Source: Desulfomonilaceae bacterium | GTDB lineage: Bacteria > Desulfobacterota > Desulfomonilia > Desulfomonilales > Desulfomonilaceae | Direction of reading: 5' to 3' | Assembly: GCA_031082285.1 (NCBI GenBank) | Contig: JAVHLK010000032.1 | Location: forward strand, 1 to 37,874 | Length of the DNA: 37,874 bases | Shown here: in pieces, positions 4,080-11,787 of the stretch | Layout: the number at the start of each line of letters is the position of its first letter | How positions within the stretch are numbered: the stretch's first letter is position 1 | Notes under the pieces: model-generated | Database searches by the model: none | What the model was told of the DNA's origin: nothing | Seen by the model: the letters and a program-made list of their open reading frames with translations, nothing else | Program-made: the position numbers and the translations under genes

Positions 4080-4221
4080 CTCACTCAGTACCACATCCTT
4101 TGAACGACGGGCTCTGTCGAACTGAAAGGTTCGAGCATCGGCCCGTCACGTCACCGGTCCTCCTTCGGCGAGGCGCTTCGTCATTCCCCCTGCTCGTCGT
4201 CCGAGGACCGGTTTTCCGCCA

Positions 4222-4275: not shown

Positions 4276-4351
<76 letters not shown>

Positions 4352-4461: not shown

Positions 4462-6312
4462 TCAATTCCTCTTGAGGTATTCGTGCGCGAAGTTGCGGAT
4501 GCCCTTGTTCTGAAGCATATGGAAGGTGCGCATCCTCTTGACGTGGATCGGGTTGAGAGAGCCCAGAGGGATGTAAATGATCCGTTTCCCCATGCTCTTG
4601 GCCAGCTTCTTCCATTTTGCGGGCGGAGGCTTCTTGCTCACATAGACGATGCCGGGCTTCTCGGAATACGCGATGCCGGCGACCAGCAGACGTTCGTGCC
4701 TCGTCGGAACGAAATCAAAGTCAGGGTCCATCCAGATGTCGAACATCCGCATGGGAGGATAGGACATGACGAATCCGCCGTGCTCGAGCCTGGAGATGCC
4801 CGGGCCGACGATTTCCGCGCCGGGAAGCGTGGAGTAAAACGCCATGTCGGATTCCTGAGAGTGCTCGCCAAGCCACGTCATCTGGAACGGGTACCGCACG
4901 GTTTTCTCGTCCTCGTCGAAGATCACCACCACTGAGCCGAATTCGAGCCCGCCCTGATCGTCGGTCTTGACGTAGATGCGCTGTTCGTAGAATCTCCTCA
5001 AGGTTTCCCGCACGTCGGGTCCGCCGCCGAAATCCGCGACAAAGGGTTCGGCATCCGTCTGCACGGCCTGGAGGATGTGATTCGCGTGCTTGATCAACGT
5101 ACCGCCCCACTTCTCCACTTCAACGTCCTCGGGCGGATACGAACAGATATCGAGTTCGTTGGGGTCGGCAGTCTCCCACTTGCGCTTGAGATGGTCCTTC
5201 CATTTGGACGTGTTCACCGCTTTCATGCGGTACCGTCGAGCGGTGTGAAAGAGCGTCCTCAACTTCTTGTGGAGGATGATCTTGTGACCGTGGAACATGA
5301 GGTTGTCTTCGTCCAAGAGCACCGCGGACGGGTCCAAAGGGTCGTGAGCCCAGGCATAATCCGAGAGGTATTCGTGGACGTGATACGCGAAATCTTCATC
5401 CATTGCAGAGCGCGCGGCCGCCACGAGATGGTACAGATCGGGAAGCATCTCCCCCTTGAAGTTGAGCCACTTTCTGAGGAATTTCGACCAGGTGACTCTC
5501 ACATAATCGGGCACGTCCTGATGGGTCTGGCGCGTGAAATACGCCGCGGACGCCGCCATGAGCGAAATGATCAACTCGTGGCGATTGTCCGGGTGAGGAC
5601 TGTCCGGCTCCTTGCGCCAATTCTCGAAGACTTCGGTGAGTTTGGGTATTTCGGTAAACCCCTTCTTCAACGAGTCGGGGTGGACCGGAGCGGTGATCGC
5701 GGCCGATACCCCGGTCTTCATCAACGGCAGCGCCTGAGGCGTCTCGAGCTTCTTCAGTATCCCGGGAATGTGGGCCAGTCCTCCCACGAACAGCACGTTG
5801 TCGAACTCCGCGGCCGCCTGCTGCAACTGAGAGGCCATGAAGGTCTCGCGACGTGAGTTCTCCTCGTCGTCGGCCGGAGGTCGCTGGACCAGGATCTTTT
5901 CAATGAACGTTTTCTGACCGATTGCGTCGATGAAGTACGCATCGGGGAGAGCATCCATGAAGAGCGGGTAGCGCATGCTCAACGGGTCTATCATGCGGAG
6001 CGGGATGTGTTCCGTCAGCGCGGAACGAGCCGCTTCCTGGACCCCGTCGGCTCCCTCGACGATCAGTACGGCATTCTCCTTGCCCGCGGTTTCGTACAGG
6101 ATCACGGAATGATATGGAAGCTGCTTCAGGGCTGAGACGATGTGATTCCGCAAGGCATTGGGCAGTTCGACACAGATGCAATCGGGTCTCTCCCTCCGGA
6201 TGTATGAATGCACCAGGACGGAGAACTCCATCCGGTAGTGAACCACGCCGATGAGGGTGATGTTCCTGAACCTGACCAGGTCAGACGAGTTTTGGCCCAT
6301 CAAGTGTGCCAC
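4462..6312 (-). CDS. Large protein with TraB/ChaN-like N-terminal domain; C-terminal 400 residues unrecognised
   Basis: This 616-residue cytosolic protein has no signal peptide or membrane segment. Its first ~200 residues show the TraB-type pattern: IGVVHYR (H25), a helix, then RPDCICVELP (E49), and NVLFVGGLAHIPGIL at about 172-186 resembling the VGxGHxxGI end of the domain. TraB/EreA/ChaN relatives include putative metallo-hydrolases. The remaining ~400 residues (helical centre, then a beta-rich part) match nothing I can name. Start GTG 6312 is supported by GGAG 6 nt upstream. It overlaps the stop of the MoxR ATPase gene by 32 bp, so the two are translationally coupled. TraB-like proteins of the DUF5682 type are known partners of MoxR and VWA proteins in predicted conflict systems, but no VWA gene is present here. 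Confidence 0.6.
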   Translation of the reverse strand: MAHLMGQNSSDLVRFRNITLIGVVHYRMEFSVLVHSYIRRERPDCICVELPNALRNHIVSALKQLPYHSVILYETAGKENAVLIVEGADGVQEAARSALTEHIPLRMIDPLSMRYPLFMDALPDAYFIDAIGQKTFIEKILVQRPPADDEENSRRETFMASQLQQAAAEFDNVLFVGGLAHIPGILKKLETPQALPLMKTGVSAAITAPVHPDSLKKGFTEIPKLTEVFENWRKEPDSPHPDNRHELIISLMAASAAYFTRQTHQDVPDYVRVTWSKFLRKWLNFKGEMLPDLYHLVAAARSAMDEDFAYHVHEYLSDYAWAHDPLDPSAVLLDEDNLMFHGHKIILHKKLRTLFHTARRYRMKAVNTSKWKDHLKRKWETADPNELDICSYPPEDVEVEKWGGTLIKHANHILQAVQTDAEPFVADFGGGPDVRETLRRFYEQRIYVKTDDQGGLEFGSVVVIFDEDEKTVRYPFQMTWLGEHSQESDMAFYSTLPGAEIVGPGISRLEHGGFVMSYPPMRMFDIWMDPDFDFVPTRHERLLVAGIAYSEKPGIVYVSKKPPPAKWKKLAKSMGKRIIYIPLGSLNPIHVKRMRTFHMLQNKGIRNFAHEYLKRN

Positions 6313-7123
6313 GATTTTCTCCGGTTACTTGTTGTATCGACTGGTCAAGGGCCTTGCGTTCGTCGGTGCTCTTGTCGAACTTGAGGAGCCTGTAGGCGTA
6401 CCGAGCGATGTTCAATCCGTCACGGACGCTCAGGTCCTCATCTCTTGCGTGGGATACCTGGAGCAGCTCGACCACCTGGCGAATCAGGTCGTCGGAAGGC
6501 CCGTCCAGTTTGCCGCGCAGGATGCGATACTCCTCTTCACGGGTGGGGAAGTCCATATGGATGGCGGGCTGAAGTCGGGAATGGATGTACTCGGGCACCT
6601 CGAAGGTGGACGCATCTTCGTTCATGGTGACGCAGACGCGAAATTCCGGCGCAGCCTTGATCTCCACACCCGCGACAATGGAATAGACGCTGCGACGCAT
6701 GTCCAGGAGGGGCGCAATTGATGCCCAGCTCTTTTCGCTCATGCGGTTGCCCTCGTCCAGGAGGCAAATGCCGCCGCGTATCATGGCGGTCACGAGAGGT
6801 GAAGCCACGTAGCGAATCTTTCCGTTGTCCGCGATGACCGGTGATATGATCAGGTCTTCCGGTTTGGTGTCCACGGTGCATTGCGTAATGTACAGGTCCT
6901 GCTTCATGTGCTTGGCCGCGGTGATGGCCAGGGAAGTCTTCCCCACGCCGGGCTTTCCCAGGATCCTCGGCTGCATGGCCGGATCCGATCCATCCTCGGA
7001 CCATGCCGCAAGAAGCTGAGTGAGCGGCTCTTGCATTCCCACCCAATCTACGTCCAGCGAGGGCGGATCCACCAAATGAATCTCCACGCCTTTCATGGTT
7101 ATGGTGTCGGGGCGTTGGGCCAT
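6281..7123 (-). CDS. MoxR-type AAA+ ATPase
   Basis: The 280-residue protein is a single AAA+ module of the MoxR/AAA_5 type: Walker A GKPGVGKT at 56-63, Walker B GGICLLDE at 117-124, sensor-1 TMNED near 168, and an arginine-finger region SRLQP. MoxR ATPases act as chaperones that remodel or activate a partner, usually a VWA-domain protein. The start at 7123 is supported by GGGAGA about 8-9 nt upstream; a longer in-frame version (to 7198) lacks this support. It is the first gene of a two-gene unit with the TraB-like protein (32-bp overlap), driven by a consensus promoter 120 bp upstream. The TraB-like protein is the obvious client (inference). Confidence 0.88.
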   Translation of the reverse strand: MAQRPDTITMKGVEIHLVDPPSLDVDWVGMQEPLTQLLAAWSEDGSDPAMQPRILGKPGVGKTSLAITAAKHMKQDLYITQCTVDTKPEDLIISPVIADNGKIRYVASPLVTAMIRGGICLLDEGNRMSEKSWASIAPLLDMRRSVYSIVAGVEIKAAPEFRVCVTMNEDASTFEVPEYIHSRLQPAIHMDFPTREEEYRILRGKLDGPSDDLIRQVVELLQVSHARDEDLSVRDGLNIARYAYRLLKFDKSTDERKALDQSIQQVTGENRGTLDGPKLV

Positions 7124-7242: not shown

Positions 7243-7271
7243 ATTCTAGTTCACGGAGGTGAGAGTGTCAA
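7243..7271 (-). promoter_or_regulatory. Promoter of the MoxR-TraB unit
   Basis: The minus strand reads TTGACA-N17-TAGAAT (-35 at 7271-7266, -10 at 7248-7243). It is near-consensus and leaves a leader of about 115 nt before the MoxR start at 7123. Confidence 0.75.
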
Positions 7272-8886: not shown

Positions 8887-10320
8887 TCAGATCGTCGTGA
8901 TCTTAATCTCTATGCGACGGTTGAGTCTTCGAGCCTCTTCCGAGGCTCCTTTGGCAACCGGGTGGAACTCACCGAGCGCGGATGCTCCGATGCGGGTCGG
9001 GGGAATTCCCTTCTCCATCATGTAGCGAACCACCTGCATGGCTCTCTCTGATGAGAGTTCCCAGTTCGATCGGTAACGGGCCGTCCGTACCGGCACGATG
9101 TCCGTATGGCCCTGTACCAAGATGAGCATAGGGATGTCCTCGGGAATCTTGGGCACCATCTCCTTGTAGATCTTGACGAACTTGTCCAGTTCCCGCTTTC
9201 CGGTTTCGTTTATCTCAGCGCTGCCGGAAGCGAACAGTATTTCGGATTGGAACACGAATCGATCGCCCTGGACCTTGATGTCGGACACGCCGGCAAACAC
9301 TTGCTGCAACTTGGCGAGGAACTCACTCCGGTACTTGGCAAGTTTGCGCAGGCGGTCAATTTCCTTTTCCTTTTCGCCGAGCAGATTCACCAGTTTGGCC
9401 ATGCGAAACTGCTCGTCTCTTTCCTTACTGACCTCTGCAAGTTTTTTCGAAATCTCGTGCAGCTGTGCCGTGAGCGACGCGATCTGTTTCTGGAGCGCAG
9501 ACGCTTTCGTCTTCTGCGTGGTCTCGGCTTCCTTGGCATCCGAAACCATTCGGTTCAGTCGGTCCACTTGATCGACGTAATCCGCAATCTGCTTGTTCAG
9601 TGCGGCAAGCCTGGTGTTGAGCGATTCGATGGTGTCGCTCATCGTGGAGACCGTCTTGCTCTTTTCCTTGATCTCCTCTCGAGTCTTTACCAGTGCGGAG
9701 CGGGTGTCCGTCAATTCGATGCCGAGATCAGCGGCAATCTTTTCCTTCTCCTTCAGCAGCGTGCTCTTTTCGGTCAGATCCGCGAGCGCGGACTGAATCT
9801 CCCGACGATACGCGCCCAGTAACTGGTCCTGGTCGAGCAGTCTGGCCGTCTTATCCTTAATGTCGGCAAGGGCCGCGTCGAGCTGCGTTCTCGCATCGGC
9901 CAGGGAGCGATCCGTCTCTTCAAGCTTAGACGATTTCTCAAGGAGTTCCGCGGTGACCGATCCCAGTTCTTCGGTTCGAGACGTCAAGAGCTTTTCCAGG
10001 GACGCGGTCTTCTCCACTTGAGTCTCAAACAGCTTTTCAAGACGGATGATATCGGCCCTGAGTTTTTCCAGTTCTTGCGATTTGAGAGCGATCTCCTCGG
10101 CAAGCCGTTCCATCTTCTCGGTTCTCTGCGAGATCTCCTCGTGCAGGCGCAGAAGTTCCTTGTCTTTCTTGCTCAGGGATCGTGAGAGAATCGTCTCCGA
10201 AATGGTGAAAAGGGTAACGACCAGGACGAACACGAGGAGCAGCCCGACCATGATGTCGGTGAAGCCCGGCCACACATTGGACCTTTCTTCAGCGCTTCCC
10301 TTTCTCCTGCTTCGCATCAC
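8887..10320 (-). CDS. MotB/OmpA-like peptidoglycan-binding stator protein with long coiled coil
   Basis: The 477-residue protein has a short charged N-terminus, then one membrane segment containing an Asp (GFTDIMVGLLLVFVLVV, D22) in the position of the proton-carrying Asp of MotB. About 270 residues of heptad-rich coiled coil follow (45-320), then a C-terminal OmpA domain with GHTDIVPV, SSERAMQVVRYM and LNRRIEIKI. MotB/ExbD-like subunits pair with MotA/ExbB-like channels to couple proton flow to work across the envelope. The ATG overlaps the stop of the upstream MotA-like gene by 4 nt (ATGA), so they are made together. The long coil is unlike flagellar MotB and would reach far across the periplasm. 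No flagellar genes are nearby. It is reminiscent of ZorB of Zorya defence systems. Confidence 0.85.
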   Translation of the reverse strand: MMRSRRKGSAEERSNVWPGFTDIMVGLLLVFVLVVTLFTISETILSRSLSKKDKELLRLHEEISQRTEKMERLAEEIALKSQELEKLRADIIRLEKLFETQVEKTASLEKLLTSRTEELGSVTAELLEKSSKLEETDRSLADARTQLDAALADIKDKTARLLDQDQLLGAYRREIQSALADLTEKSTLLKEKEKIAADLGIELTDTRSALVKTREEIKEKSKTVSTMSDTIESLNTRLAALNKQIADYVDQVDRLNRMVSDAKEAETTQKTKASALQKQIASLTAQLHEISKKLAEVSKERDEQFRMAKLVNLLGEKEKEIDRLRKLAKYRSEFLAKLQQVFAGVSDIKVQGDRFVFQSEILFASGSAEINETGKRELDKFVKIYKEMVPKIPEDIPMLILVQGHTDIVPVRTARYRSNWELSSERAMQVVRYMMEKGIPPTRIGASALGEFHPVAKGASEEARRLNRRIEIKITTI

Positions 10321-11597
10321 TCGGTTTCCTCTTGAGGGTCTCCTCGTTTGTCGATTCCGGGTCTTGTCCGGTCGAACCTTCGTGCGAGGTCGGAAAAGCC
10401 CATTGAGAGAGTCTTGTTGGTGATCTCTCCTTCGAGTTTTATGCGGTCGAGGAGAGCCTTGCCCATGTCTTCGGATTCGTCCCTGTTCAGGCGTGCTTCC
10501 TTGATCAATCTCTCGAACTGGCGGCCTACGTTGTCCATCCTTTCAAGCATGCCTTGACGCAACTGATTCGCCGCATACACTCCTTCTCGAGTAAGATTCT
10601 CTTCCTCCCGCAGCGTTTCGAGCATGCCCTTGATCTCGACCAGGGAGCTTGCCACCTTCTCATTGGTCGCGGATTGGTCGGAGATCACGTCGGTCAGTCT
10701 CCGGAGATTTTCCGCAAGCGCCTCTTGAGACGCGACAATGTACAATTCGCCGCTGCCCGGTTCCGCCGCAGATGCCACGCGTTCAGACGGAACTTGAGGC
10801 CGTGGAACCGGGGGAGACGCAGGAAAGGTCGCCTCCGATTCCGCTGCTCCGGCCGGCAACAGGTGAGTGACCACGAATCTGTCCAGGTCGGCTAAGACGC
10901 TGGATCTCGCACGCCTGGTCAGGACATCGAGAAACCCGACCACGACCGATCCGCCCAGTCCGAAGAGCGATGTGCTGAAGGCTGTGGAAAGCCCGCCAAG
11001 AAGTCCGCCCATGGATTGTTTGAGCTGGGTGACGAAGAGTGCGGGGTCGTCGATTCGTGCCGGCTCCATCGCGGTCAGTACCTTCTGCACTCCGCCCACG
11101 GTGAGCAGTACTCCCCAGAACGTCCCGATAAGGCCCGCGAAGACCATCACTCCGATGAGATACCGTACAAAGGCTCCCCGACTCTCTTCAGAATCCAGGT
11201 CCGCGTCGGAAAGAAGCGTCAGTGACTGCGAGATGGACGCGGTTCCGCTGCGCACCAATTCAAGGGTCCGAAGACAACGATTCGCGACGAGCCCTCTGCC
11301 GGTCGTTTTTACCAAGTCCTGGACGGACTTGTCCGATGCCGGTGAACCGGACTCCAACGACCCGGCCAGCAAATCCATGCGATTGGACTGCACCAGGAGT
11401 CTCAACAGTTCCATGAACGACAGGAGTATGCCCACCATTCCCAGAACGAGAATCGCGGCGTTGATTGAGGGTCGGGTCATGAAGAAGGGGACCAGTTGGT
11501 CTCTCGTCCAGTACACCCCTATGGCAAGGGCCACGCAGAAGACGACTGCCCAGAAAAGTGAACGATAGACTTGTCCTGAACTCGGAGAATAGTCCAT
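10317..11597 (-). CDS. MotA/TolQ/ExbB-like proton channel with C-terminal coiled tail
   Basis: The 426-residue membrane protein has an N-terminal pair of membrane helices (about 13-33 and 40-62) and a second pair at about 145-175 and 200-232 with GLIGTFWGVLLTV and the Ser/Thr-Gly-rich TAFSTSLFGLGGSVVVG, the MotA/ExbB channel signature. A 190-residue hydrophilic, partly coiled C-terminal tail follows. The start at 11597 is set by GGGAGG 7 nt upstream; a longer GTG version (11639) lacks a ribosome-binding site. It would form the 5:2 motor with the downstream MotB-like protein. The long tail parallels ZorA, whose tail is proposed to transmit the signal into the cytoplasm, but no ZorC/ZorD effector is present. 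Confidence 0.83.
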   Translation of the reverse strand: MDYSPSSGQVYRSLFWAVVFCVALAIGVYWTRDQLVPFFMTRPSINAAILVLGMVGILLSFMELLRLLVQSNRMDLLAGSLESGSPASDKSVQDLVKTTGRGLVANRCLRTLELVRSGTASISQSLTLLSDADLDSEESRGAFVRYLIGVMVFAGLIGTFWGVLLTVGGVQKVLTAMEPARIDDPALFVTQLKQSMGGLLGGLSTAFSTSLFGLGGSVVVGFLDVLTRRARSSVLADLDRFVVTHLLPAGAAESEATFPASPPVPRPQVPSERVASAAEPGSGELYIVASQEALAENLRRLTDVISDQSATNEKVASSLVEIKGMLETLREEENLTREGVYAANQLRQGMLERMDNVGRQFERLIKEARLNRDESEDMGKALLDRIKLEGEITNKTLSMGFSDLARRFDRTRPGIDKRGDPQEETE

Positions 11598-11787
11598 GAG
11601 GCTGCCTCCCAACTGAAGGCTTTGAAGGTGTTGATTCACGAGGGGGCCTACGGTCGGTCCTTCACTTCGACCGCCGCCAAGCCGGTAGGCCCGTCACGGC
11701 AAGACTCAGAGTAGTACATGGTTCCGCCCGGCATCCCACCCGCACGCTCGATACGATTCACCGGTAGGCGAGATCGGACCTGCCGGC

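Follow-up and report, generated by a model that had tools for sequence, protein, structure and literature searches.

A MoxR-class AAA+ ATPase and a DUF5682-related partner protein encoded by a co-inherited gene pair in Desulfomonilaceae and other bacteria

Results

The gene pair and its signals

The DNA analysed here, referred to as the window, is the stretch of 37,874 nucleotides at positions 1 to 37,874 of contig JAVHLK010000032.1, from the Desulfomonilaceae bacterium assembly GCA_031082285.1. It carries two genes that are the subject of this study, one for a MoxR-class AAA+ ATPase and the other for a larger partner protein whose N-terminal part is related to DUF5682 (Table 1). The 3' end of the ATPase gene overlaps the start of the partner gene, and a near-consensus promoter-like site upstream is common to both. 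An initial annotation, made from the sequence without database searches, had described an overlapping pair with a single promoter of this kind, and both frames were found where it had placed them. Four promoter-like sites occur between positions 4200 and 8800, compared with a mean of 1.4 in shuffled sequence.

Table 1. Features of the gene pair and its surroundings in the window
Feature	Position	Strand	Remarks
MoxR-class AAA+ ATPase gene, 280 aa	6281..7123	-	ATG start; open reading frame and Pfam
Partner gene, 616 aa; DUF5682-related N-terminal part and C-terminal domain	4462..6312	-	GTG start
Overlap of ATPase and partner reading frames, 32 bp	6281..6312	-	Different frames
GGAG, Shine-Dalgarno-like, 6 bases 5' of partner GTG	6319..6322	-	Direct reading
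Promoter-like site, sigma-70-type, TTGACA-17-TAGAAT, 5' of ATPase gene	7243..7271	-	11 of 12 consensus bases
TIKI/TraB/ChaN-type domain, partner residues 12-200, with His25 and His181	5713..6279	-	Model, fold search, profile
Helical middle region, partner residues 223-347	5272..5646	-	Model; aligned to DUF5682 by profile comparison
Most conserved domain, partner residues 384-616	4465..5163	-	Alignment; no confident fold match
tRNA-Phe, 3' of the pair; neighbour outside the module	4276..4351	-	Own promoter-like site at 4394-4366

Both genes were recovered in 15 of the 17 other genomes of the window's family, and for this reason we regard the two frames as genes and not as chance open reading frames (ORFs). 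In these genomes the ATPase is 75-88% identical to that of the window and the partner 46-78%, two of the partner sequences being fragments at contig edges. The two genomes in which neither gene was found are 81-82% complete. As the genes were called, 12 of 16 loci, the window included, share an overlap of exactly 32 bp; in the remaining four the gene caller chose an upstream start codon.

The ATPase

The ATPase contains a Walker A motif (GKPGVGKT, residues 56-63) and a Walker B motif (LLDE, residues 121-124), and it scores above the curated Pfam cut-offs for AAA_5 (E 1.7e-18, 67.4 bits, cut-off 22) and AAA_3 (E 1.3e-7, 32 bits, cut-off 27). On this combination of family scores and motifs it belongs to the MoxR class, as had been proposed initially. 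The solved structures nearest to a profile of 71 ATPase rows are those of midasin and CbbQ/NorQ, followed by the uncharacterised protein 2r44. Midasin and CbbQ have VWA partners. The relation of the ATPase to YehL-type proteins is distant (hhalign 94%, E 1.4e-7). In published descriptions most MoxR proteins go together with a VWA cofactor whose gene lies nearby, and YehL is one of seven MoxR subfamilies (PMC3893208); NorQ is described as acting with the VWA protein NorD (PMC9976466). Several relatives of the ATPase are listed with an internal "1 TGA", and selenocysteine was considered. This idea was dropped because in the four loci checked the translation runs through the domain unbroken, without an internal stop.

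The partner protein

Relatives are encoded in 573 stretches of a collection of species genomes; the 80 best of these loci, with two more from IMG/VR, make up the 82 used here. By itself the window partner scores 13.1 bits against Pfam DUF5682 (PF18934), under the cut-off of 26. A profile of 82 rows (the window and 81 relatives) aligns over residues 16-416 with a YehM-type profile built from 11 proteins (hhalign 98.1%, E 1.4e-13). On this profile evidence the first ~416 residues of the partner are distantly homologous to DUF5682, the family of Escherichia coli YehM, and the suspected DUF5682 relation is borne out. Only five DUF5682 matches were found among 198 genomes of the phylum, all of them over the cut-off and all members of the partner family. 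Aligned with the YehM family, the C-terminus of the partner gives a probability of 0.1% (E 0.61), and no match to the C-terminal part of DUF5682 was obtained. The initial annotation had left a C-terminus of 400 residues without assignment; since the alignment with DUF5682 extends over residues 16-416, about 230 residues (384-616) rather than 400 are left in that position. In one Desulfobacteraceae metagenome-assembled genome (MAG) the partner is split into two frames (L066, 7944-9827), through either a real break or an assembly error.

The model of the full-length partner has a mean predicted local distance difference test score (pLDDT) of 84.9 and a predicted template modelling score (pTM) of 0.61. 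With VIA-align, model residues within 1-194 superimpose on HopBA1 (Z 7.8, root-mean-square deviation (rmsd) 3.7 over 144 residues) and on ChaN (Z 7.4, rmsd 4.7 over 152), and the alignment with EreC extends to residue 242 (Z 5.8, rmsd 5.6 over 150). The best score, Z 10.5, belongs to a Tetrahymena complex IV chain, the family of which was not checked. With phosphatases next in the list at Z 4-6, an individual Z value counts for little, and it is the sequence matches to PF01963 that carry the TIKI/TraB assignment: the partner profile weakly matches positions 9-110 in other proteins of ~390-500 aa, and the two that were checked are PF01963 TraB proteins. Taken from the model and these profile matches together, the predicted fold of residues 6-194 is of the TIKI/TraB/ChaN type, in keeping with the TraB-like N-terminus first reported.

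Conservation is concentrated elsewhere in the protein. Among 50 non-redundant rows, 40 of 233 positions are invariant in the C-terminal domain, whereas the N-terminal domain has 7 such positions of 189 and the middle region 3 of 125. Modelled alone, residues 384-616 give a pLDDT of 87.0 and a pTM of 0.80. Foldseek returned no match for this domain at E<=0.001 in PDB or BFVD, and a second look with VIA in PDB gave a best Z of 3.6; the lack of a listed family is no evidence for a new fold. When 345 genomes of the phylum were searched with up to three candidates scored per genome, the domain was matched apart from the rest of the partner over 31 residues in G304 and in part in G212 and G235, where we read the matches as pieces of genes cut by contig ends.

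Co-occurrence of the two genes

The initial annotation had called the pair coupled, a claim that loose co-occurrence would have undermined. In the 345 genomes both genes are present in 54, only one in none and neither in 291, so that the two presence sets are the same 54 genomes, under 20 family labels. Presence was defined by E<=1e-30 for the ATPase, a limit fixed before the search, and by E<=3e-20 for the partner, which was read off afterwards at a jump in E-value from 3e-20 to 1.5e-7; a further 22 genomes with weak partner-profile matches only were not counted as partner-bearing. The distance between the genes is at most 300 bp in 41 of the 54 genomes, 300-1000 bp in four and 7-10 kb in two, and in seven they lie on different contigs. 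In one of these genomes (G050) the separation is real, because the genes sit at least 40 kb from the ends of contigs that measure 95 and 188 kb.

The ATPase gene is within 300 bp of the partner gene in 70 of the 82 loci. Eight of the 82 have no ATPase gene at the locus, and six of the seven bacterial genomes among them that were searched whole have it elsewhere. Across the 70 pairs, ATPase and partner distances correlate with r 0.94 (0.915 without the window's clade), which fits joint inheritance of the two sequences and is no proof of interaction between the proteins.

VWA genes and other neighbours

A VWA gene had been reported missing beside the pair. For the CoxE and YehP types this holds well beyond the window: at E<=1e-4 neither the window nor the 1,014,671 bases around the 82 relatives gave a match, in a search of six-frame ORFs of at least 100 aa with two hidden Markov models (HMMs) that did not cover other kinds of VWA. 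As a control, the CoxE HMM finds YehP at 2e-10. Across the 345 genomes, VWA_CoxE occurs in 37 of the 54 pair-bearing genomes and in 173 of the 291 others (p 0.23), and 17 pair-bearing genomes are without it at E<=0.001. Since its presence is independent of the pair, VWA_CoxE is no obligate unlinked partner. Neighbourhood clustering with a crude gene caller showed no third gene that recurs across lineages; recurrent neighbours are lineage-specific, with a HemW-like gene beside the pair in some genomes of the window's family and local synteny in other groups.

Distribution

Among the best 80 loci the closest named relatives are from Desulfomonile MAGs, and the remainder include named Geobacteraceae strains (Geomonas, Citrifermentans and Geotalea), Desulfobacterales, three Omnitrophota MAGs, one Lambdaproteobacteria MAG and one Armatimonadetes MAG. 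The genome of the Lambdaproteobacteria locus L112 (G376) holds two ATPase relatives, at C98 and C116 (E 4.7e-141 and 1.4e-109), possibly through duplication or contamination. In another family of the window's class one of 24 genomes (G020) has the pair in a distant form, the ATPase being 33% identical and the partner matching near full length at E 1.3e-27. This locus (L044, 1-7311) consists of a distant AAA gene and a gene for a TraB-type protein of 782 aa, with a TPR gene after them and a RyR-domain AAA gene upstream; no homologue of the L044 protein was found in plasmids and viral contigs.

Plasmid records gave one match, a linked pair on plasmid pS13 of the chlamydiote Neochlamydia sp. S13 (L158, 5093-7806), and the phage records searched gave none. 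Two IMG/VR contigs, classed as viral but of unchecked nature, carry partner relatives (L127 and L128), and the second of these is linked to an ATPase gene.

On a quick tree the phylum labels change 21 times, where the least possible number is 4 and the mean after shuffling 26.0. These changes are not read as transfer because vague titles spoil the labels, rows titled only "Deltaproteobacteria bacterium" having been filed under Myxococcota. In our reading of the tree most sequences of one lineage stand together (Desulfomonilaceae, Geobacteraceae, Desulfobacterales and Omnitrophota). Those of Neochlamydia, Armatimonadetes and IMG/VR are placed amid Desulfobacterota sequences, and some transfer may therefore have occurred.

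Discussion

A proposed two-component remodelling machine

Judged by the nature of the parts, their pairing and their relation to MoxR/adaptor systems, the most probable interpretation of this locus is an ATP-driven remodelling machine whose adaptor is the partner. We put at about one half the probability that the two genes encode one obligate, two-component MoxR-class AAA+ machine without a VWA component, in which the DUF5682-like protein takes the adaptor's place. Like its relatives in the MoxR class, the ATPase would form a ring, and the partner would bind a client and couple it to the ring, which is the job of the VWA protein in NorQ-NorD and RavA-ViaA. The C-terminal domain would be the likely ring- or client-binding part, and the TraB-type head might recognise or process the client by means of a hydrolytic site that some lineages could dispense with. 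The output may then be maturation or remodelling of a client rather than killing.

Several observations weigh against this interpretation. In one MAG (G374, locus L107) the partner is present and the ATPase was not found in a search of the whole genome. Nor was an ATPase found in the IMG/VR record of L127, in which the partner gene starts near the record's end. The Fisher test for co-occurrence (p 1.7e-64) ignores shared ancestry, and the correlation of 0.94 between ATPase and partner distances has no baseline gene with which it can be compared. The C-terminal domain matches no solved fold, so that the adaptor role is inferred. It is also the case that most of the aligned partners keep the residues of a hydrolytic site, as considered further below, and this argues that catalysis usually matters.

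Comparison with known systems

In the E. coli operon yehL-yehM-yehP-yehQ, which encodes AAA, DUF5682, VWA and SWIM proteins, and also in annotated plasmid operons, DUF5682 resides with a MoxR ATPase and a VWA protein. As in our pair, the AAA gene is followed directly by the DUF5682-type gene, and there is homology between the two loci in both components, partner residues 16-416 with YehM and the ATPase with YehL. Unlike that operon, no YehP-type VWA gene was found with the pair and no SWIM neighbour was seen. The ATPase is ~80 residues shorter than YehL and has its nearest solved relatives in midasin and CbbQ/NorQ, and where DUF5682 has its C-terminal part, the partner carries another conserved domain.

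A second resemblance is to the CGN subfamily of MoxR, in which NorQ is paired with NorD and CbbQ with CbbO. There too a MoxR-class ATPase of ~270-280 aa is accompanied by one large partner, although in our pair the head of the partner is of the TraB type and no VWA domain can be recognised in the protein. With the TIKI/TraB/ChaN/EreA superfamily the partner shares the fold of residues 6-194, the pair of histidines and profile similarity to PF01963. It differs in that this fold lies here within a protein of 616 residues that has an AAA+ ATPase as its companion, and in that some members have lost the histidines. The MoxR-vWA ternary conflict systems described in PMC7159879 likewise combine a MoxR-class ATPase with a further dedicated partner; in contrast, no VWA gene was found and no variable effector noticed with our pair, which is kept by nearly the whole family. 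The words TraB, EreA, PrgY and DUF5682 are absent from the main text of that paper. A literature search limited to open-licence papers found none on DUF5682, and two in which at least two of YehL, YehM, YehP and YehQ are named.

A more specific proposal is advanced tentatively and with somewhat less confidence than the remodelling machine itself. The pair may represent a MoxR-class subfamily that does without VWA altogether and has as its adaptor a protein derived from DUF5682/TIKI, the C-terminal fold of which would be new. Bacteria as different as sulfate reducers, Geobacteraceae, Omnitrophota and Chlamydiota would keep it as an obligate pair, and the TIKI site would be dead in some of its lineages.

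The TraB-type head as a possible working part

An alternative to the adaptor role, which we think rather improbable, is that the TraB-type head is itself the working part, a peptidase or esterase to which the ATPase controls the access of substrate. In a TIKI endopeptidase 2His/2Glu residues are described as essential (PMC6254334). The predicted head has a fold of this type, and the matching of His25, His181, Glu49 and a second Glu to the 2His/2Glu set is based on alignment and not on coordinates. Both histidines are present in 76 of the 82 aligned proteins, the window included, and neither is present in the other six; loss of a single one was seen in none of the 82. The six proteins without them are a clade of five rows adjoining the window sequence and L128 from IMG/VR. 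The pair of histidines was thus lost at two places on the tree, while the ATPase and the C-terminal domain stay. This paired loss suggests that the two histidines form one site that is dispensable in some lineages, and because they are lost together hydrolysis is probably dispensable in the six proteins concerned. The greater conservation of the C-terminal domain than of the head also tells against a primarily enzymatic role. The initial annotation had spoken of an ATPase/hydrolase module; in view of these losses hydrolysis is doubtful as its essential activity.

A possible degenerate VWA domain

The initial annotation had also pointed out that a VWA fold in the C-terminal half would make this a known, fused layout. 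It is doubtful, and in our estimate slightly less probable than a working TraB-type head, that in the C-terminal domain a VWA survives in highly degenerate form, its MIDAS (the metal ion-dependent adhesion site) lost, which would make the partner a DUF5682-VWA fusion adaptor, the known layout in disguise. A genuine fusion does exist in Streptomyces atratus, on a plasmid of which DUF5682 and a YehP-type VWA are joined in a protein of ~1255 aa beside an AAA gene (L167, 1840-5607). The possibility was pursued after YehP was found to align best with the partner family at a D-x-x-x-T-L-R stretch just N-terminal of its VWA domain. The distant homologue L044 aligned at this same stretch, which was also the commonest place in single-sequence runs, though in only 9 of 81.

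The alignments themselves (E 0.04-0.28) are at the level of noise, the 10% quantile of 366 control ORFs being 0.0955; these ORFs, like the 26 gene families used as a further control, came from the pair's neighbourhoods and were unfiltered for relatives, the ATPase family or antisense frames. Nor is the placing consistent, since one profile run was best elsewhere and the window C-terminus aligned elsewhere at E 0.14. The profiles comprised 12 YehP-type proteins and 16 of CoxE type (20 stretches had been fetched, four of them without the requested motif frame). That of the 16 CoxE proteins reached E 0.038, below all 26 neighbour-gene families (lowest 0.05), but at another place in the VWA domain. 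With YehP and CoxE profiles not significant against controls and the place inconsistent, the candidate was set aside as improbable.

At E<=1 Pfam has no VWA in the C-termini of any of the 82 aligned proteins. The MIDAS motif DxSxS is absent from the window partner, and three of the 82 have one, at residues 198, 142 and 258, all outside the C-terminal domain. Of 50 rows listed from the viral structure library, six are VWFA or CobT-like proteins, and two of these have the top TM-scores of the list (0.25 and 0.23). Chain 9qhe_G of the NorQD complex, which we take to be NorD, was present in the second look in PDB, but with only Z 2.8 and an rmsd of 10.6 A for residues 384-616. Rows of the RNase H-like type are at least as numerous in these lists as VWA-type rows; all are at noise level, and neither relationship is claimed. 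The suggested check for a VWA fold thus gave VWA-type rows at noise level and no significant match by Pfam, Foldseek or profiles.

An unlikely defence function

That the pair is a stripped-down phage-defence or conflict system is unlikely, and we give it very little weight: its parts resemble MoxR-VWA conflict systems, its presence in the phylum is patchy (54 of 345 genomes), and a plasmid-borne pair, the relatives in two IMG/VR contigs and possible transfer also speak for such a system, but nearly every genome of its own family retains it, no third gene recurs across lineages, phage records gave no match and plasmid records only one, and in PADLOC-DB the partner matches no family and the ATPase only AAA-type ones weakly (best TRIP13, 2.2e-4, then IetA, 0.0037). 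The initial annotation had placed TraB-type and DUF5682 proteins in predicted MoxR-VWA conflict systems. The link to MoxR-VWA operons stands, through yehLMPQ and the plasmid operons, whereas the framing as conflict or defence does not, given the retention in 15 of 17 genomes, the PADLOC-DB result and the main text of PMC7159879.

Significance and neighbouring genes

If the two genes do encode a remodelling machine, a minimal, co-inherited pair without VWA would offer a clean two-protein system in which to ask what an adaptor contributes. It would also tie DUF5682, the function of which Pfam gives as unknown, directly to its ATPase in one functional unit. Named Geobacteraceae strains of Geomonas, Citrifermentans and Geotalea carry relatives, and in such harmless laboratory bacteria both genes could be deleted and tagged.

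Elsewhere in the window, at 8887-11639 on the reverse strand, a MotA/ExbB-like gene is followed by a gene for a long coiled-coil OmpA/MotB-like protein, an arrangement that resembles ZorA/ZorB of Zorya. The ZorB3 model matches at 2.3e-27 and the ZorA3 model at 1e-10, and homologues of these genes are found at the corresponding place in a further genome (G003).

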